Shown: positions 2,497-25,121 of the stretch, in pieces
Numbering within the stretch: position 1 is the stretch's first letter
How the letters are laid out: each line of letters starts with the position of its first letter
IMG/VR virus record: IMGVR_UViG_3300007234_000090
Span: 1-25,121 of that record
Direction: 5' to 3' (one strand)
Length of the DNA: 25,121 nucleotides
DNA from: a virus
Position numbers and translations under genes: made by a program
The notes under the pieces: generated by a model
Told to the model about the DNA's origin: nothing
The model's database searches: none
Seen by the model: the letters and a program-made list of their open reading frames with translations, nothing else

Positions 2497-4221
2497 ATGG
2501 CTCTCAAATCTTATGATTTACCGGACGTAGACCCTTTTGATTATATTGGTGAACCTGACGTTGCTCAAGTGAAAACTGAGGTTCAAAAATTAAACGAAAT
2601 TGTTCCATCTGCTGCGTTTTCTCCAGACCAGATGAAAAATCTCAAAGACAAAATTGGCGCTCAATTAGAATCGTTAGGTACTTCTTTACCATCAGACCTT
2701 GTTGGATTTAAAGCTAAATTAGATACTATTACTCCAAAAACATTATCTTCTGTACTTTATGATTCTGGAGTAAATCCTGCTGATTTTAATGTCGAATCAT
2801 TCGACTTATCTTTAGAATCCATAACAAATTTACAAAATAGTGTAAGAGGATTTGAAGCGGCTGTGAATGGTGGATGTGATGCTTTAGTCACAGCATTAAA
2901 CACAAGTGTCGATTTAAGTAAGTTAAGTACTGCTGATATTAAAATGCCGTCAATACCATCCCTTGCTTTTTTTGAAGCAAGTGCTGAGGATCTAATTCGT
3001 GAAGCAGCAAAGACTGCAAATGAAATCGCAGAAGACATAGAACAGGAAATCAACAGTGTTAAAGACAATCTTACTACAGCATTTGATAATCTCTCCGAAA
3101 CGGTTTCTACGTCAATCACTTCTGCTGAAAATTACATCAAAGATGTTGCAAATTCCATTGAAAAGACTTATTCTATTCAGATAGAAAGTACATTGTCCGG
3201 TGTGAAAGACAGTCTCGCTTCTCTTAAATCTATTGCTGAATCCTGTGGAGATCATCTTCAAAAAACGACAGAATCTAAGATCGAAAATAATAAAAAATCA
3301 GTAGAAACTCTGTCTAAAAAACTTACTGAAACAAGTCCAAATGTTGTTAATGAAATTCAAAAGAATCACAAACAAGCGCTTGATACTTTAAAAGGCTTAG
3401 TATCACAAGAAACAAATTTAAAGAAACAAGCAGAGATTGCTGCGTTTATAAAGAACTATGAGAAAAACAACCCTACCGCAAATCTAACTGAAGTTGAAAA
3501 TGCCGTAAAAAGACAAATAGCGACCGCCTCAAAATATAATGATGAATTAATTAAAAGAAAGATGGATGAAGCCCAAAAGAAAGTTCAACACACTGAAGCA
3601 AAATTAAAAGATTTGTCCAAGAAATCAAAGAAAGTCATTGCTAATTCCGGTATAGAAGGTAGACCACTTAAAGGTAAAGAACAAGTTGTTGAGAGTGCTA
3701 CAGAATGGACTGGCGAAAAGAAAACTTTTGATAAGTCTTATTTTGGTGGTCCTTATAATGCTGAAATTGCAAATCACATTAACACACTACACCCTAAAAT
3801 TCGTCAAAGATTTGCTGATGCGATGTATGATCTTACAACCGATGAAACTTTAATTGCAGCAGGTATTCGAGCGAGGGTTACTTCTTCAACGAGATCATAC
3901 GCAAAACAACAAGAACTTTACGACTACTATAAACCTCGCGGCACTCCAGTCGCAAGACCAGGAAATAGTTGGCACAACTTTCAATGTGCGATTGATATTC
4001 AGGTGATTGTAAATGGTACTAAGAAAGGTAAGACAAGTAAATATTATACTGGTATTCCTAGACAAATATTCGCAAAATATGGATTAATAAATCCTTTCGC
4101 GAATGATTATATTCATTTTCAACCAAAAGAACTACTTTTAAGCCCAAGAACTATTAAATCAAAATTACTTATTAATGGATCAACAGTGAACTTAGATGCT
4201 GTTGGTGCCTTGTTAAAGTGA
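2497..4221 (+). CDS. Baseplate hub-associated protein with C-terminal M15 peptidase domain
   Basis: Probable virion-carried peptidoglycan hydrolase that opens the cell wall during DNA injection. The first 150 residues have no domain I recognise. Residues about 150-400 are strongly helical and charged, very likely coiled coil. Residues about 425-560 match the M15 (VanY-type D-Ala-D-Ala peptidase) fold: STRSYAKQQELYDYY, then SWHNFQCAID with the zinc ligands H493 and D500, and DYIHFQP with the third ligand H540. The usual SxHxxGxAxD motif has Q instead of G at position 496. It starts 2 bases after the spike gene ends, with GGAG at 2486-2489. With a spike gene that lacks lysozyme next to it, the natural reading is that the two activities of T4 gp5 are divided between two proteins. 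Substrate is inferred from the family only. Confidence 0.82.
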   Translation: MALKSYDLPDVDPFDYIGEPDVAQVKTEVQKLNEIVPSAAFSPDQMKNLKDKIGAQLESLGTSLPSDLVGFKAKLDTITPKTLSSVLYDSGVNPADFNVESFDLSLESITNLQNSVRGFEAAVNGGCDALVTALNTSVDLSKLSTADIKMPSIPSLAFFEASAEDLIREAAKTANEIAEDIEQEINSVKDNLTTAFDNLSETVSTSITSAENYIKDVANSIEKTYSIQIESTLSGVKDSLASLKSIAESCGDHLQKTTESKIENNKKSVETLSKKLTETSPNVVNEIQKNHKQALDTLKGLVSQETNLKKQAEIAAFIKNYEKNNPTANLTEVENAVKRQIATASKYNDELIKRKMDEAQKKVQHTEAKLKDLSKKSKKVIANSGIEGRPLKGKEQVVESATEWTGEKKTFDKSYFGGPYNAEIANHINTLHPKIRQRFADAMYDLTTDETLIAAGIRARVTSSTRSYAKQQELYDYYKPRGTPVARPGNSWHNFQCAIDIQVIVNGTKKGKTSKYYTGIPRQIFAKYGLINPFANDYIHFQPKELLLSPRTIKSKLLINGSTVNLDAVGALLK

Positions 4222-4654: not shown

Positions 4655-6433
4655 ATGGCTGAAACCATTATATCAGAATTAGACTTCAATCAAATCAAAG
4701 CGCAGTTGAAGTCCTTTCTTCAAGGACAGACTCAGTTCGCTGATTACGATTATGATGGTTCGAATATGTCTGTATTACTAGATATTCTAGCGTACAACAC
4801 ATTTCAGAACAGTTTCTATACAAACATGGCGCTTGGTGAAATGTTTCTTGATTCGGCAAAACTGAAATCATCTGTAGTTTCGCATACAAAAGAATTAAAT
4901 TACTTACCTAGGTCATATCGTAGTTCTATTGCTAAAATCAACATATCGTTTAGTCCATCTGACTCTCCTGCTGCAATAACTATTCCAAAACATACAAAGT
5001 TTACAACAACGCTTGACGGTACAACATACACTTTTTCAACTGATGAGACGAATATTATAACTCCTGTAGATGGAGTGTATAGTATCACAAACGTTTCTGT
5101 TTATGAAGGAAGAATTATCAAAGAGTATTTTGATGTTACAGCATCTACAAAATATGAATTAAGTAACAAAAGACTTGATACTAATAGTATAGAAGTTGTT
5201 GTTTACGACTCAAATGTTGCTGGTGCTGCTTCAAATTCGTATACTTACAAACCCAATCTATTTGGTGTAAATGCTACCGATAAAGTGTACTATTTACAAG
5301 CCTCAAAAGAAGATCAATATGAAATCTATTTTGGACAGAATAGTTTTGGATATGAACCACAAATTGGACAGGTTGTTGAAGTCGCTTATAGAGTTTCTAT
5401 AGGAGAAGATGCTAACAACGCTAAAACATTTGCATCTGTTGGTTCAATAGATGGATATGTACCAACTGTGACAACACAATCAATTTCTTCTGGTGGAGCA
5501 GAACGAGAAACAATTTCATCCATAAAATATTTTGCTCCAAAATCAATACAAATTCAAGACAGAGCAGTGACAGAATCAGACTATAGAAACCTACTCCTAA
5601 GTAACTTTTCGGAGATTAACGATGTTTCTGTTTATGGAGGAGAGAGAGTCGATCCACCAAGATATGGTAAAGTTATCGTATCGATTGATAATGAAAATGT
5701 TGATGGTATTTCAGAGAACTTAAAAGAGAAATATAAGAATTTTCTTTTAGAGAGAACCTCTCTTGCTATTGAACCAGTAATTCAATCTGCCCAATACATA
5801 TACGTTAGTGTTACAAGTGATGTGTATTACAATACTAACATTACCTCAAAAACGATAGGCGAGATTGAAACTCTCGTTCGAAATTCAATTTCTTCATATT
5901 CAAACACATACTTAAATAGTTTTGATAAAAATGTCAGACACTCTCGATTAGTTCGGGCAATTGATGATACAGACTTTTCTATCGTTGGTAATGACACAGA
6001 AATTAAGATGTATGTATACATAGCACCTACGTTGGACACAGATAGCAACTTTACGATAGAGTTTCGTAATCCAATTTTCATTGAACATGAACTTCATATC
6101 GATGAAGACGTTTCAAGAAACTTTCCAGGTGTAAAGTCTACATTGTTCACATATAACGGGGATTCAGCATATCTTCAAGATAATGGTTTGGGTGTATTAC
6201 AAATCTTAACAAACACTGCTAGCGGCGCTTTTATTTTAAATAACAACGTTGGTACCGTTAATTACACTACTGGTAAAGTGATCATTCGTAATATTAACGT
6301 CTCTAATTATTCTGGCCAGGGCATTAAAATTTATGTCAAACCAACAACATTAGATATCTTAGGTCCATTTGATAGAATTATCGCAATTGATAATTCTGAT
6401 GTCACTCTTACGATAAAGGCTGCGACTGACTGA
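4655..6433 (+). CDS. 6: Baseplate wedge subunit gp6
   Basis: This is the main wedge component; in T4 it forms the inner ring as a dimer and binds gp25, gp53 and gp7. The family signature is in the N-terminal part (residues 35-75): MSVLLDILAYNTFQNSFY, MALGEMFLDSAKL and the KELNYLPRSYRSS segment. Further recognisable parts are a RAVTESDYRNLLLSNF segment near residue 305, typical of gpJ/gp6 family proteins, and RHSRLVRAIDDTDFSI near residue 428. It has 592 residues against 660 in T4. It starts one base after the gp25 stop and its own stop overlaps the next start (TGATG at 6431-6435), so translation is probably coupled. The C-terminal 100 residues are beta-rich and less conserved. Confidence 0.92.
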   Translation: MAETIISELDFNQIKAQLKSFLQGQTQFADYDYDGSNMSVLLDILAYNTFQNSFYTNMALGEMFLDSAKLKSSVVSHTKELNYLPRSYRSSIAKINISFSPSDSPAAITIPKHTKFTTTLDGTTYTFSTDETNIITPVDGVYSITNVSVYEGRIIKEYFDVTASTKYELSNKRLDTNSIEVVVYDSNVAGAASNSYTYKPNLFGVNATDKVYYLQASKEDQYEIYFGQNSFGYEPQIGQVVEVAYRVSIGEDANNAKTFASVGSIDGYVPTVTTQSISSGGAERETISSIKYFAPKSIQIQDRAVTESDYRNLLLSNFSEINDVSVYGGERVDPPRYGKVIVSIDNENVDGISENLKEKYKNFLLERTSLAIEPVIQSAQYIYVSVTSDVYYNTNITSKTIGEIETLVRNSISSYSNTYLNSFDKNVRHSRLVRAIDDTDFSIVGNDTEIKMYVYIAPTLDTDSNFTIEFRNPIFIEHELHIDEDVSRNFPGVKSTLFTYNGDSAYLQDNGLGVLQILTNTASGAFILNNNVGTVNYTTGKVIIRNINVSNYSGQGIKIYVKPTTLDILGPFDRIIAIDNSDVTLTIKAATD

Positions 6434-9400
6434 TGGAAAACCTATCAAAGACCATTTCTGAATACATAGAGCAACAATTTCCTGATGTCTACAGAGAAGA
6501 TGGCGACAACTTAGTTGCGTTTGTAAAGGCGTATTTTGAATTTCTAGAAGATACAGAATTCAGCCCAATCAGATTAAATCGTAGCATGTTTGACCATCGC
6601 GATATTGACAGAACACTTGACGATTTCATTTATCATTTTAATGACAAATATCTAAATGAGTTTCCGTTTGTAAAGACTGTTGATAATAGATTTGCAGTCA
6701 AACATATTATGGACTATTATAGGTCAAAAGGAACTCCAAGAGCGGCAGAACTTTTAATTCGTTTTTTGTTTAACTCTGATTCTACAGTATACTATCCTGG
6801 AAAAGATGTTTTTTCTTTATCCGATAGTAAATGGTTTGTCCCTAGATATCTTGAAGTCACTCAATCTTCTAGAACACCCAGTTTTGTTAATACTCAGATT
6901 ACAGGCTCTGTTTCTGGTGCAAAAGCGTTTGTTGAAGGTATAGTGAGAAAGAGAATTGCAGGAAGATTCATTGATGTAGTATACATCAGCAGCTTAAAAG
7001 GCAACTTTATTACTGATGAGTATATCACAAATGATAGTGTATTAGGTGATGCCCCAAGAGTTATAGGTTCATTAACTTCGATTACGATTACTTCTGGTGG
7101 TTCTGGAAATCAAGTTGGCGATATTTTCAATGTCACATCTTCTTATGGTCTCCAGGGCAAAGCGAGAATTACAGAACTTGTAGAAGAAACTGGTAAAATT
7201 ACCTTTGATCTCACAGACGGTGGTTCTGGTTATACACTCGATGATAACACTGATGCGTATGTTGCTGATGCGATGATTGCAGGAGATAATTCAGCGGGCA
7301 ATTTCAATCTTTACGAAACTATTCAACAGAAAAGAGTAATACTCGACCTTGATTCCGCAACAAACATCAATACACAATATGCAGCAAACAATAATGTTGG
7401 CGATACTTTAGAAGGCGTTGATTCTGGTGGCAGTCATGTAGCAACTGGTATAATTTACTCTTTTGCTAATACTGACGCTGGTGGAAATACTGTTACAACA
7501 TCTTCATCGTATTCTAAAGTAGAAGTTGTTGTAACTGATGGAAGTTTTCTTCCAAAATATTCCGTCGATTTTGCTAGCGCTAATGTCGATTTTATTATCA
7601 ATGAGACAGTCACTGAAGAGTCTGCTGTTACAATCGAACTCGGTAACATTTCGGGTACATTCTCAAACGACGATGTTGTTGCTGTTTATGTCTACTCTGA
7701 TCCTTCTGAAGTTGGTGGTGATACAGTAGTTACTAATTATTCTAAAGGTGTTATTTTAGAAGCAAATGATTCTCACCTTACTTTGATTGATGCTTGGGGA
7801 GATTTCACTGCTGGTGAGACGATTGGTGTTTATGAAGCGAACGGCACACCAGTCGCTACTGCTGATATCGTATCGTCAACTGTCACTTCAGGTGGTGCTG
7901 TTGGAACGATAAAAACAGAAACAGATTCTAATACATGGGTTATCGAATTAACTTCAGGATCTCTTGATGTTGGTAATAAAGTAAGAGGAAACACGTCAAA
8001 AGTAGAAGACACAATATCAGCACTCACTGAAACGGGTGTTGTTGAAGTTTGGTTGAATAGTAACTCAAGTCATGATGGATTAAAAACTTCAGTTACGAAT
8101 ACTTCAGTTTCTGGTATGCTTGTAGGTCAAAACACATCAACAATTGGCATATATGCTAATACTGGGTCATTCTATTATACAGAAGATGCCGGATTTACAG
8201 TCCAAACAGATAGAACAACAACCAATGTATCTATGGTTATTACCAATCTTTACACAGGAGAAGGAGCAGATTTCGCAGTCGCTTCTCTTTCTGATACCGA
8301 ATATGTTGAGTTGAATACCGACGATGTTTCTGATACGAATGTTGTTGGACAACCCTATACAAATATAAACTTTGATGGTTCTAACTCTGGCGTTGGGTAT
8401 TTATCGAGTGTTTCGTCAACTGGAGGTTCTGGATACGCAAATAACCAATATACTCTGTCTGGTGGTGGTGCTGCAAACGGAAATCCAATTATAGATGCAG
8501 TTGTTACAGTTACGACGAATGTTAGTGGTGTGATAACTTCTATTGTTGTTGATAATCCAGGCGAAGGTTATTATCAAGAACCAACACTTACTCTTTCTCC
8601 AGGTTCAGGCGCAACTATCACTATCGATATGATTTATGGATATGGATTTCCTAAAAATCCATACGGCGATGCGAACACCGACATTGAAGATTTGTTGACC
8701 TTTGCAAATACAGAAATTGGTAGTATTGCATCAATCACGACAAATCCAGGTAGCGATTATAACGTAAATCCTTTTGTTTCTATATACAACGAACTTGTTG
8801 CGGGATACAATAAACAAGATACTAGACTTGATATCACAATTTCATCTGGTTCGTTCTCGGTTGGTGAGAATATATTATTAGATGGAAATGTTATGGGTGA
8901 GATTAAAACTGCAAATTCGACAGTAATATTCTTAAAAAGAACTATATTTGAACCAGTTTGGTCATCAAATACGACAATTGTTGGTCAAACAACTGGCGCA
9001 GTTGCAACAATCGATATTAGAGCAACCGACGCTGCTTCTTCTCCAATGGGAGATAATGCTATTATCGAATCATCTGTGACAACTGATGCTGGTACAGCGG
9101 GTGTTGTTGAAATTGTCAATTCAGGATATGGATATCTGAATGATAGTAGTGTGACTTTGACAAAAACAGGATCAAATGATATAACAGGTACGGCATTATT
9201 AGGTAGACAGGGTATTGGCACTGGATATTGGACAACAACAAAAAGTCATATTAGCGACACAAGTAAGATTCATGATAATAAATATTATCAAGAATACTCG
9301 TATGAAATACAAAGTAACGTATCTTTGAATAAATATAGAGATATTGCTAGAAATGTTCTTCATGTTGCTGGAACAGAACTATTTGGTGCCGTTATAAAGA

Positions 9401-11127
9401 ATACGAAGATTGACATGAATCAGACATCAATTGGTTCAACAGTAAAAGTTCAAGATCCTTTTATTATGACGGTCACTACTAACGCAGCATCTCAGACATT
9501 TGCAATACCTACTCAAGATGTTGGTACTTTTGATGCTATAATTGATTGGGGTGATGGTAAAGCTCGATCAATTATTACATCATACGATGATGCTGGTTTG
9601 TCTCATGTATATGATGTCCCAGGCGAATATCAGATTCGCATCGCCGGCACATTCCCTTACGTTCGTTTCAGGGATAGTGGTTATGAAGATATGGTTACTT
9701 CAGTTGAAAATCTTGGTGATGTTGGTTGGATCAGTTTTGAGAATTCGTTCTATAACTGTTCAAATATGACTTCGTTTACTGTTGGTACAACGGACACTTC
9801 TTCTGTTACTAATATGTCCTTTATGTTCAATCAATGCTCTGGGTTAACAACTCTTGATCTCAGTGGTTTCGACACTTCTTCTGTTACTACTATGTATGCT
9901 ATGTTCAGAAACTGCTTTGGATTAACAACTCTTGATCTCAGTGGCTTTAATACTGCCCTTGTTACTAATATGTGGGATATGTTCTATAACTGCTCTGGAT
10001 TAACGGGCATCACAGGTATAGACACCTTTGACACTTCTTCTGTTACTACTATGCGTTATATGTTCTTTGGATGCTCTAGCCTAACAACTCTTGATGTAAG
10101 TGGATTCAACACAGCCCTTGTTACTGATATGTATGATATATTCTATAACTGCTCTAGCCTAACAACTCTCGATGTAAGTGGATTCAATACCGCTCTTGTT
10201 ACTGATATGCATGGTATGTTCTATAACTGCTCTGGAGTAACAACTCTTGATGTAAGTGGATTCAACACAGCCCTTGTCACTGATATGGGCTTTATGTTCT
10301 ATAACTGCTCTGGAGTAACAACTCTTGATGTAAGCGGATTCAACACTTCTTCTGTTACTACTATGTATGCTATGTTCTATAACTGCTCTGGAGTAACAAC
10401 TCTCGATGTTAGTAGCTTCGACACTTCTTCTGTTACTGATATGTATTCTATGTTCAGGGAATGCTCTGAATTAACAACTCTTGATGTTAGTAGCTTCAAC
10501 ACTTCTTCTGTTACTAATATGAGCTTTATGTTCTATTACTGCTCTGGAGTAACAACTCTTGATGTAAGTGGATTTAATACTTCTTCTGTTACTGATATGC
10601 AATCTATGTTCCGTCTATGCTCTGGAGTAACAACTCTTGATGTAAGTGGATTTAATACTTCTTCTGTTACTACTATGCGTTATATGTTCCTTAACTGCTC
10701 TGGAGTAACAACTCTTGATGTAAGTGGATTTAATACTTCTTCTGTTACTAATATGAGCTATATGTTCTATAACTGCTCTGAATTAACAACTCTTGATGTT
10801 AGTAGCTTCAACACTTCTTCTGTTACTAATATGAGCTTTATGTTCTATTACTGCTCTGGATTAACAGACATCATTGGTGTAGATGCTTTTGACATCAGTG
10901 GTCTCAGTTTCAGTTCTAGTCTCTACAACTTCGCAACTAATGTTACTCTCCCAACATCCCGCTATGATGCACTGTTGATAGCATGGGAGGCGCAAGACCC
11001 GTTAAACGGCATGGCTCCAAACTTTGGTGGTTCAAAATATACTGGTGGCGGGGCGGCTGCTGCGGCTCGCTTAAATCTAACAACTGTACCGGTCAACTGG
11101 ACGATCACTGATGGAGGTATAGCATAA
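6433..11127 (+). CDS. gp7-position baseplate wedge protein fused to a C-terminal PKD + leucine-rich-repeat adhesin module
   Basis: This 1564-residue protein lies between gp6 and gp8, where T4 has gp7 (1032 residues). Residues 1-150 are a domain I recognise from marine T4-like phages (YIEQQFPDVYREDGDNLVAF, MDYYRSKGTPRAAELLIRF). Residues 200-905 are beta-rich with recurring GSGY-type turns (about 222, 263, 664, 710, 897). Residues 951-1008 (KYYQEYSYEIQSNVSLNKYR, VLHVAGTELFG) look like the family's natural C-terminus. It then continues: a PKD-like domain (DWGDG at 1038-1042, HVYDVPGEY at 1058-1066), 13 full DUF285/BspA-type repeats of 26 residues (1127-1465) flanked by degenerate ones, and a cap (SRYDALLIAW...WTITDGG) characteristic of bacterial BspA-like surface proteins. 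Overlaps gp6 by TGATG. The wedge role is inferred from gene order; I could not show similarity to T4 gp7. The module is presumably exposed and binds a host surface. Confidence 0.85.
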   Translation: MENLSKTISEYIEQQFPDVYREDGDNLVAFVKAYFEFLEDTEFSPIRLNRSMFDHRDIDRTLDDFIYHFNDKYLNEFPFVKTVDNRFAVKHIMDYYRSKGTPRAAELLIRFLFNSDSTVYYPGKDVFSLSDSKWFVPRYLEVTQSSRTPSFVNTQITGSVSGAKAFVEGIVRKRIAGRFIDVVYISSLKGNFITDEYITNDSVLGDAPRVIGSLTSITITSGGSGNQVGDIFNVTSSYGLQGKARITELVEETGKITFDLTDGGSGYTLDDNTDAYVADAMIAGDNSAGNFNLYETIQQKRVILDLDSATNINTQYAANNNVGDTLEGVDSGGSHVATGIIYSFANTDAGGNTVTTSSSYSKVEVVVTDGSFLPKYSVDFASANVDFIINETVTEESAVTIELGNISGTFSNDDVVAVYVYSDPSEVGGDTVVTNYSKGVILEANDSHLTLIDAWGDFTAGETIGVYEANGTPVATADIVSSTVTSGGAVGTIKTETDSNTWVIELTSGSLDVGNKVRGNTSKVEDTISALTETGVVEVWLNSNSSHDGLKTSVTNTSVSGMLVGQNTSTIGIYANTGSFYYTEDAGFTVQTDRTTTNVSMVITNLYTGEGADFAVASLSDTEYVELNTDDVSDTNVVGQPYTNINFDGSNSGVGYLSSVSSTGGSGYANNQYTLSGGGAANGNPIIDAVVTVTTNVSGVITSIVVDNPGEGYYQEPTLTLSPGSGATITIDMIYGYGFPKNPYGDANTDIEDLLTFANTEIGSIASITTNPGSDYNVNPFVSIYNELVAGYNKQDTRLDITISSGSFSVGENILLDGNVMGEIKTANSTVIFLKRTIFEPVWSSNTTIVGQTTGAVATIDIRATDAASSPMGDNAIIESSVTTDAGTAGVVEIVNSGYGYLNDSSVTLTKTGSNDITGTALLGRQGIGTGYWTTTKSHISDTSKIHDNKYYQEYSYEIQSNVSLNKYRDIARNVLHVAGTELFGAVIKNTKIDMNQTSIGSTVKVQDPFIMTVTTNAASQTFAIPTQDVGTFDAIIDWGDGKARSIITSYDDAGLSHVYDVPGEYQIRIAGTFPYVRFRDSGYEDMVTSVENLGDVGWISFENSFYNCSNMTSFTVGTTDTSSVTNMSFMFNQCSGLTTLDLSGFDTSSVTTMYAMFRNCFGLTTLDLSGFNTALVTNMWDMFYNCSGLTGITGIDTFDTSSVTTMRYMFFGCSSLTTLDVSGFNTALVTDMYDIFYNCSSLTTLDVSGFNTALVTDMHGMFYNCSGVTTLDVSGFNTALVTDMGFMFYNCSGVTTLDVSGFNTSSVTTMYAMFYNCSGVTTLDVSSFDTSSVTDMYSMFRECSELTTLDVSSFNTSSVTNMSFMFYYCSGVTTLDVSGFNTSSVTDMQSMFRLCSGVTTLDVSGFNTSSVTTMRYMFLNCSGVTTLDVSGFNTSSVTNMSYMFYNCSELTTLDVSSFNTSSVTNMSFMFYYCSGLTDIIGVDAFDISGLSFSSSLYNFATNVTLPTSRYDALLIAWEAQDPLNGMAPNFGGSKYTGGGAAAAARLNLTTVPVNWTITDGGIA
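9331..9450 (+). repeat. Upstream copy of a 120-bp diverged direct repeat (end of the baseplate domain)
   Basis: This stretch codes for residues 967-1006 of the gp7-position protein and matches 11341-11460 at a constant offset of 2010 bases without gaps. By hand count 93 of 120 bases are identical; the best part is 9391-9440. At protein level 28 of 41 residues agree (VLHVAGT, NTKID, IGSTV shared). It marks the boundary between the baseplate part and the added PKD-LRR module. Confidence 0.88.
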
Positions 11128-11340
11128 TGACGCATGAGATAACACAAACTTATCCAGGGTTTTTCATTATAGATAGTCATGCAGTTGAGTTGGTCCCAGG
11201 GCAAGTAGTTTCCTATCGAAATGACGCAACAGTTCAAACATTTAATACGGCAGAGGAAATGCGAACTGCTCATCAACTTCAATTCCCAGAACAATATGTA
11301 GTTGATTCGGCGAATACGATTTATGATGACTATATTGTAT
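9454..11340 (+). other. Putative inserted adhesin cassette (PKD + LRR + cap + 71-aa gene) between duplicated gene ends
   Basis: The cassette comprises everything between the two copies of the baseplate gene's 3' end: the 557 extra codons of the upstream gene and the coupled 71-codon gene. Removing the DNA between equivalent points of the two copies would restore a protein of about 1008 residues ending in STVEIE, directly followed by gp8. No integrase, transposase, homing endonuclease, intein or inverted-repeat signature is visible, so homologous or illegitimate phage recombination is the likely route. The boundaries are approximate, because they are defined only by loss of similarity between the copies. 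That it is an insertion rather than a duplication with loss is an inference. Confidence 0.7.
9811..10827 (+). repeat. Tandem 78-bp coding repeats (13 DUF285-type LRR units)
   Basis: Thirteen in-frame units run without interruption; twelve are 78 bp and one (10,000 region, containing GITGIDTF) is 81 bp. The unit consensus is xMxxMFxxCSGVTTLDVSGF followed by NTSSVT. The last 70-odd bases of many units are nearly identical, while the codons in the MxxMFxxC segment differ. The block 10462-10548 recurs exactly at 10774-10860 (87 bp, four units apart), pointing to recent duplication or gene conversion inside the array. A degenerate unit precedes (from about 9730) and one follows (to about 10908). 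Confidence 0.95.
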
Positions 11341-11342
11341 AA
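11127..11342 (+). CDS. Small protein of unknown function coupled to the LRR baseplate gene
   Basis: A 71-residue soluble, acidic protein with no domain I recognise. It begins MTHEITQTYPGFFIIDSHAV and has a middle segment rich in Q, E and T. There is no signal peptide, membrane segment, HNH or GIY-YIG motif. Its ATG overlaps the stop of the preceding gene (TAATG at 11125-11129) and a strong ribosome site, GGAGG, lies at 11113-11117, so it is almost certainly translated. It sits inside the putative cassette, between the LRR module and the stranded gene end, so it probably travelled with the LRR module. A role as folding helper or binding partner of that module is possible, by analogy with chaperones encoded after fibre genes, but nothing in the sequence shows it. 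Confidence 0.72.
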   Translation: MTHEITQTYPGFFIIDSHAVELVPGQVVSYRNDATVQTFNTAEEMRTAHQLQFPEQYVVDSANTIYDDYIV

Positions 11343-11466
11343 ATATAGAAATATAGGTGGCAAAGTATTGCACGTAGCTGGTACTAAGCTCTTTGATGCT
11401 GTTATTAGGAATACGAAGATTGACGTGATTCAGACAGCAATTGGTTCAACGGTAGAAATAGAATAA
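11323..11466 (+). pseudogene. Stranded duplicate 3' end of the gp7-position gene (47-codon ORF)
   Basis: From 11341 the DNA codes for KYRNIGGKVLHVAGTKLFDA and on through NTKID to STVEIE and a TAA stop at 11464-11466, clearly homologous to residues 967-1007 of the upstream gene. The reading frame is intact: it opens after a TAG at 11299-11301 and has in-frame ATGs at 11323 and 11326, giving 47 or 46 residues, overlapping the 71-codon gene in another frame. No ribosome site precedes these ATGs, so translation is doubtful. It ends 11 bases before gp8, where the ancestral baseplate gene would be expected to end. I read it as the old gene terminus left behind after the cassette was added. Intact frame despite divergence could mean residual function or just short length. 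Confidence 0.8.
11338..11345 (+). promoter_or_regulatory. Late promoter motif TATAAATA at the cassette/repeat junction, upstream of gp8
   Basis: The exact T4 late core spans the stop codon of the 71-codon gene and the first bases of the stranded repeat copy. The matching place in the upstream copy reads GAATAAATA, so the motif exists only because of this junction. A transcript starting near 11351 would lead into gp8 (start 11478). It could restore gp8 and downstream expression after the cassette lengthened the operon. Chance occurrence cannot be excluded. Confidence 0.5.
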
Positions 11467-11477
11467 GGTATATGTAA

Positions 11478-13559
11478 GTGGCCACAAAAATTGCTACAAA
11501 TAAATTTCGTGTGCATAGTGTCAATAAGTTTATTGATTCGGTGCAGAGTACAACAAACAGCAACAGCTATTATGTTTTTGCTGGTAGATCAAATCCATTC
11601 AGTGATGAGGTTACTCCTCCAGATGTAACATCGTCAACAGACGAAATTCATTATAATATCTATGACGAAATGTTATTTGGAAAAAGAGTAACATCTAATG
11701 ATGTGGTTTCTATGATTAGGCGAGTAGATTGGCAAAGCGGAAATACGTATGTGCAGTGGACAAATACACTAACTTCTCCGGAAGAAAAAAACTTCTACGT
11801 TGTTTCACAAGAAGGTGCAAATTATTATGTCTTCAAGTGTCTTGATAATAACAATAACAGCGCTGTAAGCGACCAACCCTTATTCAGCGAAACGTCTGCT
11901 GAAGATTCGTTATATCAAACAAATGATGGCTATATCTGGAAATATATGTATACAATTAGTGCAGCAAATTGGTCTAAATTTGCCACGAACGATTACGTTC
12001 CAGTTATTGTAGACTCGGATGTAACAGCAAATTCTATCTCTGGCTCCATCGAATTAATAAATGTAAATTCTAATGGTCTTAGATACGATGCTTATGCTAA
12101 CGGGACAATCTTAAACGCTGCCGTGGGCGGCGACACAACTAAATTCAATCTTGCTACTGGTTCTAGAACTCTCTCTTCAGCATCTGATTTTTACAATACC
12201 AGCGCTATATATATCCGTTCGGGTACCGGCGCGGGCCAAGTTAGAACAATAACTGATTATATCGTATCTGGTTCCACCTATCAAATCATGATCGATAGCG
12301 CATTTACTGTATTACCAGATATCACATCTGTTTTCGATATTGGTCCAAAGATTACAATAACCGGTGATGGTTCTGGTGCTATTGCTATTGCAAACATTAA
12401 TACTTCAGCAAACTCCATTTCTAAAATTGAAATGGTAACCGTTGGTTCAGGTTATAGTTATGCTGATATTACAATTTCAAGTAATACAACAGGCACAATC
12501 ACAGCAGTAAGTCTTACTCCTATAATTTCTCCTCCTGGTGGTCATGGTTCTGATGTGAAGAATGAATTAGTAGCGAAGTTTGTTGGTGTTAGTGCTACCT
12601 TTAAAAACAACGAATCAGGAACAATTCCAACGACAAACGATTATCGTAAGATTGGATTGTTAAAAGACCCTCTATTTGAAACTCTTACTATTGATTTGAC
12701 CACTTCTGTAGCGTCTTCATTTACAGATGGCGAGACGATAATCCATTGTACTCCAGATTGTACCAACGCATCTGATGCGATTGGTAAATCTTCTGGTGTT
12801 ATCACATCACGAAACGGTACAGAACTCCAACTTACAAATGTGAGAGGTGTTTTTGAATCAACAAATTCGATAAAAGGATTGACTTCTAACACAGAAGCAA
12901 TAATTGATACAGTTAGTAAATCATTATCTACCTTTAATCAGTTAACAAAAATTACAGCATCAATAGTTTCAACAGGCAGTGGTGGAGGCGGGCTTGCTAA
13001 CACTGGATTTACATCAGACGATACAATAACACATTCAAACGATTCTACAGGAAGAATATTTGATGTATCGTATGATATAACAAGGTCGATTTCAAATATA
13101 TCTATTGCCGATCCTGCTGTTGTGACAACAGCAGTAAATCATGGATTTGCAAACGGACAATCAGTAACATTTGATGGCCTTAATGGAAGTGCTATCAACG
13201 AAGGTGGAGTTTATTGGATTGATAATGCGGATATAAATACATTTGAACTTTACACCGACAGTGGACTAACAACATCGTTTGATAATTCTGCAAATACTGT
13301 TGCGAACACTGGTATTGTAACGAGTGCTGGTGATGTAAGTTCCTCATTTAGAACATTCCACATAAGTAATGTGAGAGGTAGTATTACAGATTCAGGAACA
13401 ATTACTTCTGATACGACTAGCGCAAGTGTAACTGTAACAGAATCCTTTCAGCCTGATCTTATAGACAACAGTGGTGAAGTGTTGTATCTAGAAAATGTTA
13501 TAGCAATAGAAAGAGCAAACGACCAAAGCGAAAAAATTAAGATTATTTTCGAGTACTAA
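11478..13559 (+). CDS. 8: Baseplate wedge subunit gp8, enlarged
   Basis: This wedge protein sits in T4 beside gp7 and gp10 as a dimer. Homology is visible at both ends: residues 1-40 (ATNKFRVHSVNKFIDSV, then YYVFAGRSNPFSDE), MIRRVDWQSGNTYVQW near 77-92, DGYIWKYMYTIS near 151-162, and the end SGEVLYLENVIAIERANDQS followed by EKIKIIFEY, which parallels the T4 gp8 end. It has 693 residues against 334 in T4; the extra part, about residues 200-640, is beta-rich, includes a GSGY turn at 323-326 and a module with NHGFANGQSVTF...NTFELY (about 553-593), a type widespread in phage appendage proteins. Start chosen is GTG at 11478, giving the family-like MATKIATNKF; the ATG at 11472 is followed at once by a stop. 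AAGG at 11465-11468 is the ribosome site. Confidence 0.92.
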   Translation: MATKIATNKFRVHSVNKFIDSVQSTTNSNSYYVFAGRSNPFSDEVTPPDVTSSTDEIHYNIYDEMLFGKRVTSNDVVSMIRRVDWQSGNTYVQWTNTLTSPEEKNFYVVSQEGANYYVFKCLDNNNNSAVSDQPLFSETSAEDSLYQTNDGYIWKYMYTISAANWSKFATNDYVPVIVDSDVTANSISGSIELINVNSNGLRYDAYANGTILNAAVGGDTTKFNLATGSRTLSSASDFYNTSAIYIRSGTGAGQVRTITDYIVSGSTYQIMIDSAFTVLPDITSVFDIGPKITITGDGSGAIAIANINTSANSISKIEMVTVGSGYSYADITISSNTTGTITAVSLTPIISPPGGHGSDVKNELVAKFVGVSATFKNNESGTIPTTNDYRKIGLLKDPLFETLTIDLTTSVASSFTDGETIIHCTPDCTNASDAIGKSSGVITSRNGTELQLTNVRGVFESTNSIKGLTSNTEAIIDTVSKSLSTFNQLTKITASIVSTGSGGGGLANTGFTSDDTITHSNDSTGRIFDVSYDITRSISNISIADPAVVTTAVNHGFANGQSVTFDGLNGSAINEGGVYWIDNADINTFELYTDSGLTTSFDNSANTVANTGIVTSAGDVSSSFRTFHISNVRGSITDSGTITSDTTSASVTVTESFQPDLIDNSGEVLYLENVIAIERANDQSEKIKIIFEY

Positions 13560-23418: not shown

Positions 23419-24681
23419 ATGGCTTCAACAATTCAAATTAAGAGAAATACTACGGGTACTCCTAGTAGTCTTGAACATGGTGAATTGGCTGTTAATACCA
23501 ATGATAAAATACTTTATGTTGGCAATAGCATCAGTGGTGTAATAGAGCTTGCTCGTAACACAATAGACGGTCTCATTTTGAGTGATGGAACAAATAATGT
23601 TACTATTCAAGCTGCAAGTGGCACCGGTGCTTATACACTCACTCTTCCGTCAGATGATGGTGGCATAAATCAAGTTCTAACCACAGATGGAAGTGGTGGA
23701 CTTTCTTGGACAACTGCTAGTGGCACATTAAGCGCTTCTGGAACACCAGTAGACGGTCAAATTGCTGTTTGGGCCAGTGCTGCATCATTAGAAGGTGATG
23801 CTGCTCTATCATTCGACACCACAACAGACACTCTATCAATCGGTGCAACCAATGACGGTACGTTGGTTATTGGTGGTGTAACAATCATCGATAACGGCGG
23901 TGCAGGTGCAGTTTCGCTCAATGGTATCAACTCTATCGATGCAACAACCGAGTCAACAATCGAATCTGCCATCGATACTCTAGGCAATCTCACATCTGCT
24001 TCAAGTCTAGCAACTGTTGGTACAATCACTTCTGGTACATGGGAAGCAACAGATATTGCTATATCACACGGTGGTACAGGTGCTTCTACAGCAGCCGACG
24101 CTAGAACAAATCTTGGTGTTGATGCTGCTGGTACAGACAACTCAACTGATGTTACTCTAGCTGGCTCACTAGATTACATCACAATCAGCGGTCAGACAAT
24201 CACGAGAAATGCTATTGACCTTGCTGCTGATGTGACCGGTACACTTCCAGTCAGTAACGGTGGTACAGGTGCAACAACTCTTGCGAGTAATGGCATTCTA
24301 ACTGGTAATGGCACATCGGCTATTCAGTCTGAAACTAATCTAACATTTGATGGTTCAACATTGTCTGTAACTGGCGATGTTTCTATCACAGGTGATTTAA
24401 CAATTGCCGGTAATACGACATTTACTGATACAACAACTGTTACTATTGAAGACTCTATGCTTGAATTAGCATCAAACAATAGTGCTACAGACACTGTTGA
24501 TATTGGTTGGTACGGTGTTTATAATAGTAGTGGTGTTAAATATGCTGGTATTGTTCGTGATGCCTCTGATGGCGTTTTTAAAGTTCAATCTGGTATTACA
24601 ACTCGCCCAGGAACAACAGTAAATTTTGGTGAAGGCGCTCTAGCGCAACTTGATGCTGTTATCGACGGCGGTACATACTAA
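23419..24681 (+). CDS. Tail fibre protein
   Basis: A 420-residue fibre protein. Residues 1-45 (MASTIQIKRNTTGTPSSLEH, GELAVNTNDKILYVGN) are an attachment-type domain also found in the N-terminus of Mtd and many marine phage fibres. Then come TLPSDDGGINQVLTTDGSGG with LSWTTASG (about 75-100), and shaft repeats including ISHGGTGASTAADARTNLGV (about 215-234) and LPVSNGGTGATTLASNGIL (about 275-293), classical phage-fibre motifs. The C-terminal part (SVTGDVSITGDLTIAGNTTF, TVTIEDSMLEL, then a domain ending VDGGTY-like) is common to marine phage fibres. A strong ribosome site is at 23408-23413. The next gene has a related N-terminus, so two fibres or two segments of one fibre may be made. Confidence 0.85.
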   Translation: MASTIQIKRNTTGTPSSLEHGELAVNTNDKILYVGNSISGVIELARNTIDGLILSDGTNNVTIQAASGTGAYTLTLPSDDGGINQVLTTDGSGGLSWTTASGTLSASGTPVDGQIAVWASAASLEGDAALSFDTTTDTLSIGATNDGTLVIGGVTIIDNGGAGAVSLNGINSIDATTESTIESAIDTLGNLTSASSLATVGTITSGTWEATDIAISHGGTGASTAADARTNLGVDAAGTDNSTDVTLAGSLDYITISGQTITRNAIDLAADVTGTLPVSNGGTGATTLASNGILTGNGTSAIQSETNLTFDGSTLSVTGDVSITGDLTIAGNTTFTDTTTVTIEDSMLELASNNSATDTVDIGWYGVYNSSGVKYAGIVRDASDGVFKVQSGITTRPGTTVNFGEGALAQLDAVIDGGTY

Positions 24682-24748: not shown

Positions 24749-25121
24749 ATGGCTTCTACGATTAAGATTAAACGCAGTGCTGTATCAGGTAATGCGCCAA
24801 ATACTTCTAATATTACTACAGGTGAACTTGCTTTAAATACAGCAGATGGTATTCTATATTCATCTGATGGTTCTTCTATATTTGAAATCGGCGCTAATCT
24901 CTCATCCCTTTCTGTTGCGGGTATCACATATCCAACATCCGATGGTACATCTGGACAAGTATTAACGACTAACGGATCTGGTACTCTATCTTTTACCGCT
25001 GCAAGTGGTGGCGGTGGGTTGACTCAAGAACAAGAAGATATACTCGAAATTCTTCAAGATGATTCTTCTTATTTTTATACTGCGATAGGCGATTTATATA
25101 CAAAAGCTGAACCAAGCGGAT
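24749..25121 (+). CDS. Second tail fibre-type protein, N-terminal part (cut by window end)
   Basis: The open frame starts at ATG 24749 and runs off the window after 124 codons. The N-terminus (MASTIKIKRSAVSGNAPNTS, TTGELALNTADGILYSSDG) is a clear paralogue of the start of the preceding fibre gene, and it shares the SGQVLTTNGSGTLSFTAASG element. After residue 90 it turns helical and acidic (LTQEQEDILEILQDD). Ribosome site AAGGA at 24737-24741 lies within an exact palindrome CCTTATATAAGG (24729-24740). Its receptor-binding end is outside the window. Confidence 0.82.
   Translation, partial: MASTIKIKRSAVSGNAPNTSNITTGELALNTADGILYSSDGSSIFEIGANLSSLSVAGITYPTSDGTSGQVLTTNGSGTLSFTAASGGGGLTQEQEDILEILQDDSSYFYTAIGDLYTKAEPSG

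Follow-up and report, generated by a model that had tools for sequence, protein, structure and literature searches.

The locus studied here raises the question of how the 3′ end of a phage baseplate gene came to stand on both sides of an adhesin cassette. We addressed it in a 25,121-nt stretch of viral DNA (IMG/VR virus record IMGVR_UViG_3300007234_000090, positions 1–25,121; hereafter the window), in which the parts of the locus, from the gp7-position gene to gp8, lie on the + strand. In a repeat search of the window, the two ends form a gapless direct repeat of copy A (9325–9447) and copy B (11335–11457), with 97 of 123 bases identical (79%) and a spacing of 2010 nt; their translations are 67% identical over 43 residues. 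The initial annotation had claimed this gene-end duplication at 9331–9450 and 11341–11460, with 93 of 120 bases and 28 of 41 residues identical. The duplication is real and its location and lack of gaps stand, but the repeat starts 6 nt earlier. Chance similarity is ruled out: copy A, used as a blastn query against the window, matched only itself and copy B (E = 8e-26), and the local alignment score of the pair, 142, lies 36 SD above block shuffles. An assembly artefact of a single contig is likewise rejected, because independent contigs agree. Contig 3300025818_000473 covers copy A through gp8 at 100% identity to the window, and contig L004 (sample 3300006916; 75% amino acid identity in gp7) has the same order of copy A, leucine-rich repeats (LRR), small gene and copy B, its own A/B pair being 89% identical.

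The gene that carries copy A (6433–11127) encodes a T4-type gp7-position baseplate wedge protein in its first 964 residues (6433–9324), as seen from the gene order gp25-gp6-gp7-gp8 and from sequence matches to the baseplate wedge subunit family phrog_17744 (E = 1e-187) and to the phiM12 protein (38% identity over 98%). Its cultured relatives are found in the Sinorhizobium phages phiM12, phiM7 and phiN3 and in the Caulobacter phage Cr30. In phiM12, the gene ends in one copy of the end motif and gp8 follows directly. In the window, no stop codon interrupts the frame in copy A or in the LRR array, and the predicted fusion protein has about 1564 aa. Copy A, a C-terminal motif that now lies inside the open reading frame, serves as the working end of the baseplate gene; confidence in the structure model is too low around the gp7 end for the fusion to be located. 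Copy B continues to the stop codon TAA at 11464–11466, 11 nt upstream of the GTG start of the wedge gene gp8 (11478–13559; PF09215, E = 4e-14; phrog_438, E = 3e-94), so that the second copy does reach a stop just before gp8 as first described. Two further tail-related features lie elsewhere in the window. A tail-region protein with a VanY-type D-Ala-D-Ala carboxypeptidase domain (2497–4221) is possibly a cell-wall-cutting tail part, and the adjacent genes at 23419–24681 and 24749–25120, with similar N-termini (MASTIQIKR.. and MASTIKIKR..), are possibly duplicated tail fibre or attachment genes.

Between the two copies lie a fused module and a small gene. The module begins with a PKD-like β domain (9460–9790, starting FIMTVTT), which is joined at the same fusion point to other anchors elsewhere. 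It continues with an LRR array (9791–11124, ending ..WTITDGGIA) of the DUF285/PARCEL type, whose 26-residue (78-nt) repeats score above the curated cut-offs of both PF03382 (E = 8e-79, 262 bits, cut-off 25) and TIGR02167 (E = 2e-139, 452 bits in 13 stretches, cut-off 30). A repeat search found 12 copies of the 78-nt period. The array was modelled as a solenoid with pLDDT >90, and its best solved natural matches are LRR cell surface proteins; we infer a putative receptor-binding adhesin. Since the array is about ten 78-nt units longer than that of L004, as expected of tandem arrays, its length seems to change quickly. The small gene (11127–11342, 71 aa) is translationally coupled, overlapping the stop codon of the long gene (TAATG) with a GGAGG ribosome site upstream. 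Its last codons, ATT GTA TAA, enter copy B out of frame, and copy B supplies the TAA. The in-frame module and the coupled small gene proposed initially are thus seen in the open frame, the LRR and the TAATG overlap, while the "PKD" label rests on a DWGDG-type β domain in sequence and model and was not confirmed by Pfam. For the small protein, no reliable match emerged from Pfam, PHROGs, NCBIfam or PDB folds, and its model, of medium confidence (pLDDT 74), matches no solved fold; matches to Plasmavirus L2 (E = 0.04) and to SAM_4 were taken as chance. No recombinase family matched either of the two cassette genes, and no homing endonuclease domain was detected between copies A and B.

The same module occurs on other anchors. 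The β domain, the LRR array and a directly following small gene were found in about ten contigs with differing N-terminal parts and the same boundary (L163, L164, L166/L167, L169/L170, L173 twice, L174, L190, L191 and L198). The small-gene homologues each stand directly after an LRR gene, as in the co-inheritance of tail fibres and their chaperone partners, and since this holds on varied anchors, the two proteins appear to travel together. This recurrence shows a portable module of LRR and small gene joined to other anchors in unrelated phages. The small protein may be a helper in LRR assembly or capping, by analogy with pairs of tail fibre and chaperone (PMC10579305). The proteins of 55–86 aa encoded directly 3′ of phage β-domain-LRR genes form a family without a name in Pfam, PHROGs or NCBIfam; for the small gene of KZY1 (L156), BLASTP found no significant similarity. 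In L173 (3758–6299), the whole unit of a 77-aa anchor, β domain-LRR and small gene stands twice in tandem. The 219-nt repeat of this contig, considered as a second case of end duplication, is this tandem copy of the whole unit. Repeats around the module in L194 and L176 reach scores of 40. A search of bacterial genomes for the module returned no relative.

Comparison of the gp7-gp8 junction among relatives reveals both empty and filled forms, as the initial annotation had predicted in asking for relatives with an empty site or with other cargo. A single native end is present in L005–L007, L011–L015 and cultured phiM12, and the architecture of copy A, LRR and copy B occurs elsewhere in L004 only. 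In many of the fetched relatives, the motif closes gp7 and gp8 starts immediately after it; in others, gp7 has a C-terminal extension (up to 1782 aa) or is followed by separate genes of 192–859 aa. Besides LRR, the cargo at the gp7 3′ end includes lectin-like (Laminin_G_3) and S74 tail-fibre domains. In a second contig set, 35 junctions were empty and 41 filled, the latter count including the window phage and L004, with junction contigs partly redundant in both sets. Since empty and filled junctions both occur among relatives, the 3′ end of the gp7-position gene is, on the evidence of these junctions, a cargo hotspot in T4-like phages. Near this hotspot, phiM12 carries an HNH nuclease-like gene between gp25 and gp6 (L159:1391–2200). 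A cassette-free close relative (>75%) was not found.

The duplicated end itself is not part of this general pattern. No convincing second copy was present in the other cargo-bearing junctions tested (33 + 39, partly redundant, about 70), the weak matches of 30–58 nt in L017 and L124 looking like chance, and a general rule by which gp7 cargo comes with duplicated ends is ruled out. L015 (11187–11420) and L033 (8294–9860), phages that are 80% identical, show one and the same site without and with cargo. L033 carries an inserted 417-aa gene, its last few gp7 codons are replaced, and a second end is absent. Because about 70 other cargo contigs lack a convincing duplication, the end duplication seems to mark one event and not a general swapping machine, and its proposed role as a mechanism for exchanging host-binding modules is not supported, the spot that is empty in L015 being filled in L033 without it.

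How the cassette reached the window phage can be read from silent sites. Between the window and L004, fourfold-site identity is 0.36 in gp6, 0.44 in the gp7 body and 0.44 in the rest of gp8, versus 8/8 in the 3′ half of copy A, 0.92 in the LRR and 0.96 in the small gene. A two-change-point fit on codons for shared residues gave a maximum-likelihood block of 9391–11550 (2 delta lnL 252), with a left boundary inside copy A (9382–9400, 2-lnL range) and a right boundary about 25 codons into gp8 (11541–11577). The left limit places the left crossover inside the duplicated motif. The block is thus far more alike than both of its flanks, and its breakpoints lie in conserved sequence, as in homologous module exchange. 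Silent-site identity above 90% in the block against about 45% in the flanks shows passage of the cassette block from one phage lineage to another by homologous recombination inside copy A. The suggestion that cassette and gene end were imported from a related phage is borne out by this profile and by the breakpoints. Vertical inheritance, with the cassette and both copies dating back to an ancestor shared by the window phage and L004, would account for the same order and junction sequence in both phages, but it is extremely improbable and is ruled out by the silent-site profile, with 92–100% identity in the block versus 36–44% in gp6, the gp7 body and gp8 and with sharp change points between them. 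The direction of transfer is indicated by a comparison of the four copies. Over its first 66 nt, copy A of the window stands apart from the remaining three copies, mostly through silent changes, whereas in the last 57 nt it is identical to copy A of L004 at 56 of 57 positions, making it a mosaic with a 5′ half of its own lineage and a 3′ half of the donor. At the 15 sites of the 5′ half where the two A copies differ, copy B of the window agrees with L004 at 12 and with the window at one. Since copy B follows L004 at 12 of 15 sites, it appears to derive from an L004-like gp7 end, which favours a donor that was probably L004-like. A block transfer by itself is directionless, and the cassette might instead have been born in the lineage of the window and then moved to L004; this is unlikely, since at 12 of the 13 informative 5′-half sites copy B of the window agrees with the gp7 end of L004 itself. 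The 22% divergence between the copies, initially put down to an old event or an import, is mostly explained by the crossover, with the 5′ half of copy A from the phage's own lineage and copy B from an L004-like one. At the sites that split A from B, every residue of copy A in L004 is of the A type, which counts against recent gene conversion from B. The silent divergence between copy A of L004 and copy B (pS about 0.17–0.21) exceeds that between the two phages in the small gene (0.04) and in copy B (0.14) and falls far below the value for the two gp7 genes. This ranking, drawn from few sites, suggests the order of lineage split, duplication and transfer.

Copy B with its stop codon (11335–11466) is detached from gp7 and lies in a different frame from the small gene. 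The native C-terminal residues, VEIE, are still present in it but have been lost from copy A; relatives end in SIEI, VTIE or EIEI. A and B differ consistently in the two phages at eight sites, seven nonsynonymous and one synonymous, whereas the ratio for the two A copies is about 4:12 (Fisher p = 0.008); the polarising of these changes draws on 41 codons and few sites. Copy B has Asp at a position where 18 of 18 relatives have Gly, and with a gp7-end profile of relatives it scores 42–44 bits, about 20 bits less than copy A (60–64 bits). Because it is cut off from its gene, has lost the invariant glycine and shows an excess of amino acid changes, copy B is best read as a decaying relic, while copy A seems to have stayed constrained. 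Copy B might instead be a separate small functional gene held by selection, a possible 47-codon frame starting at ATGATG (11323–11466). The frame is open in both phages over 54 codons from stop to stop, and the B copies of the two phages give a dN/dS of 0.21, from seven changes only. However, no Shine-Dalgarno sequence was seen, other relatives have no second copy of the gp7-end motif, and the lost glycine and the 7:1 amino acid excess also speak against it, so that we regard a functional gene as quite unlikely. The repeats might also act as a switch: by recombining with each other, A and B would remove the cassette and give back a native gp7 end, and adhesin-on and adhesin-off forms would coexist in phage populations. 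The 123-bp direct repeats (79% identical in the window, 89% in L004) are in register, and a crossover would leave an open gp7 with its native stop. On the other hand, a search of viral_contigs returned no cassette-free contig of either lineage, the repeats have diverged, and a decaying copy B would damage the restored end; such a switch is very unlikely. It is hardly more probable that the duplicated end was kept as a built-in homology arm of a recombinase-free mobile cassette, which would enter and leave the gp7 ends of phages and restore the native gp7.

We consider it highly probable that the region 9382–11577 is an adhesin cassette of β domain, LRR solenoid and small gene that was added to the 3′ end of the wedge gene and later transferred. 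In an L004-like ancestor, the cassette would have been joined in frame behind one gp7 end, now copy A, while the native end with its stop remained as the detached copy B. The join on the right was probably illegitimate (non-homologous), because the small gene takes its stop from copy B in another frame. Freed from the protein, copy B has decayed while copy A remained constrained. Later, the stretch from mid-A to the start of gp8 entered the lineage of the window by homologous recombination, with one crossover in the gene-end motif and one in the conserved gp8 start, and with copy B as a passenger. With two known carriers only, the initial duplication step is a reconstruction rather than an observation. 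A cassette added to a structural gene end with the old end left behind, as envisaged at the outset, is nevertheless supported by the four-copy comparison and the block analysis.

The locus offers a readable snapshot of how a whole binding module can be added to an essential structural gene without breaking it: the gene end is kept in frame, the module is appended and the old end is left outside. It also marks the gp7-position 3′ end as a site for cargo and defines a portable module with a small protein partner unnamed in the libraries. That T4-like phages exchange adhesin modules through homologous recombination is known; what is unusual here is the place, the end of a baseplate wedge gene, together with the relic left behind and the exact readability of the breakpoints. 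Arbiol et al. in 2010 reportedly described mobile regulatory cassettes (PeSL) in T4-type phages, with repeats serving as homology for module shuffling. These are said to be early-promoter stem-loops, unlike the coding gene ends of this locus. In the distal tail fibre genes of T-even phages, recombination between conserved motifs swaps adhesin domains (Tetart et al. 1998, cited in PMC3797505). As that work is outlined in PMC3797505, both cases have a crossover in a conserved coding motif beside a variable host-binding part in T4-like phages, but here the motif forms the 3′ terminus of a wedge gene of the baseplate, and the old gene end persists as a second copy. Fibritin of T4-like phages swaps its C-terminal domain (PMC3797505), which is likewise an exchange of modules at the end of a structural gene, and one fibritin type has a downstream chaperone gene. 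That swapping is ancient and has ceased, whereas the exchange seen here is recent, links two lineages and has left readable breakpoints and a relic. The tail fibre and cognate chaperone modules of Alteromonas phages (PMC10579305) resemble our module in that a binding protein and a small downstream partner co-travel across unrelated phages; the protein families differ, and the putative partner here has 55–86 aa and no known fold. Finally, the module shares its 26-residue repeat, horizontal spread and variation of array length with the PARCEL or BspA-like LRR surface proteins (DUF285, TIGR02167; PMC2996958). While the PARCEL proteins are mostly membrane proteins of bacteria and eukaryotes, the repeats here are fused to a phage baseplate protein.
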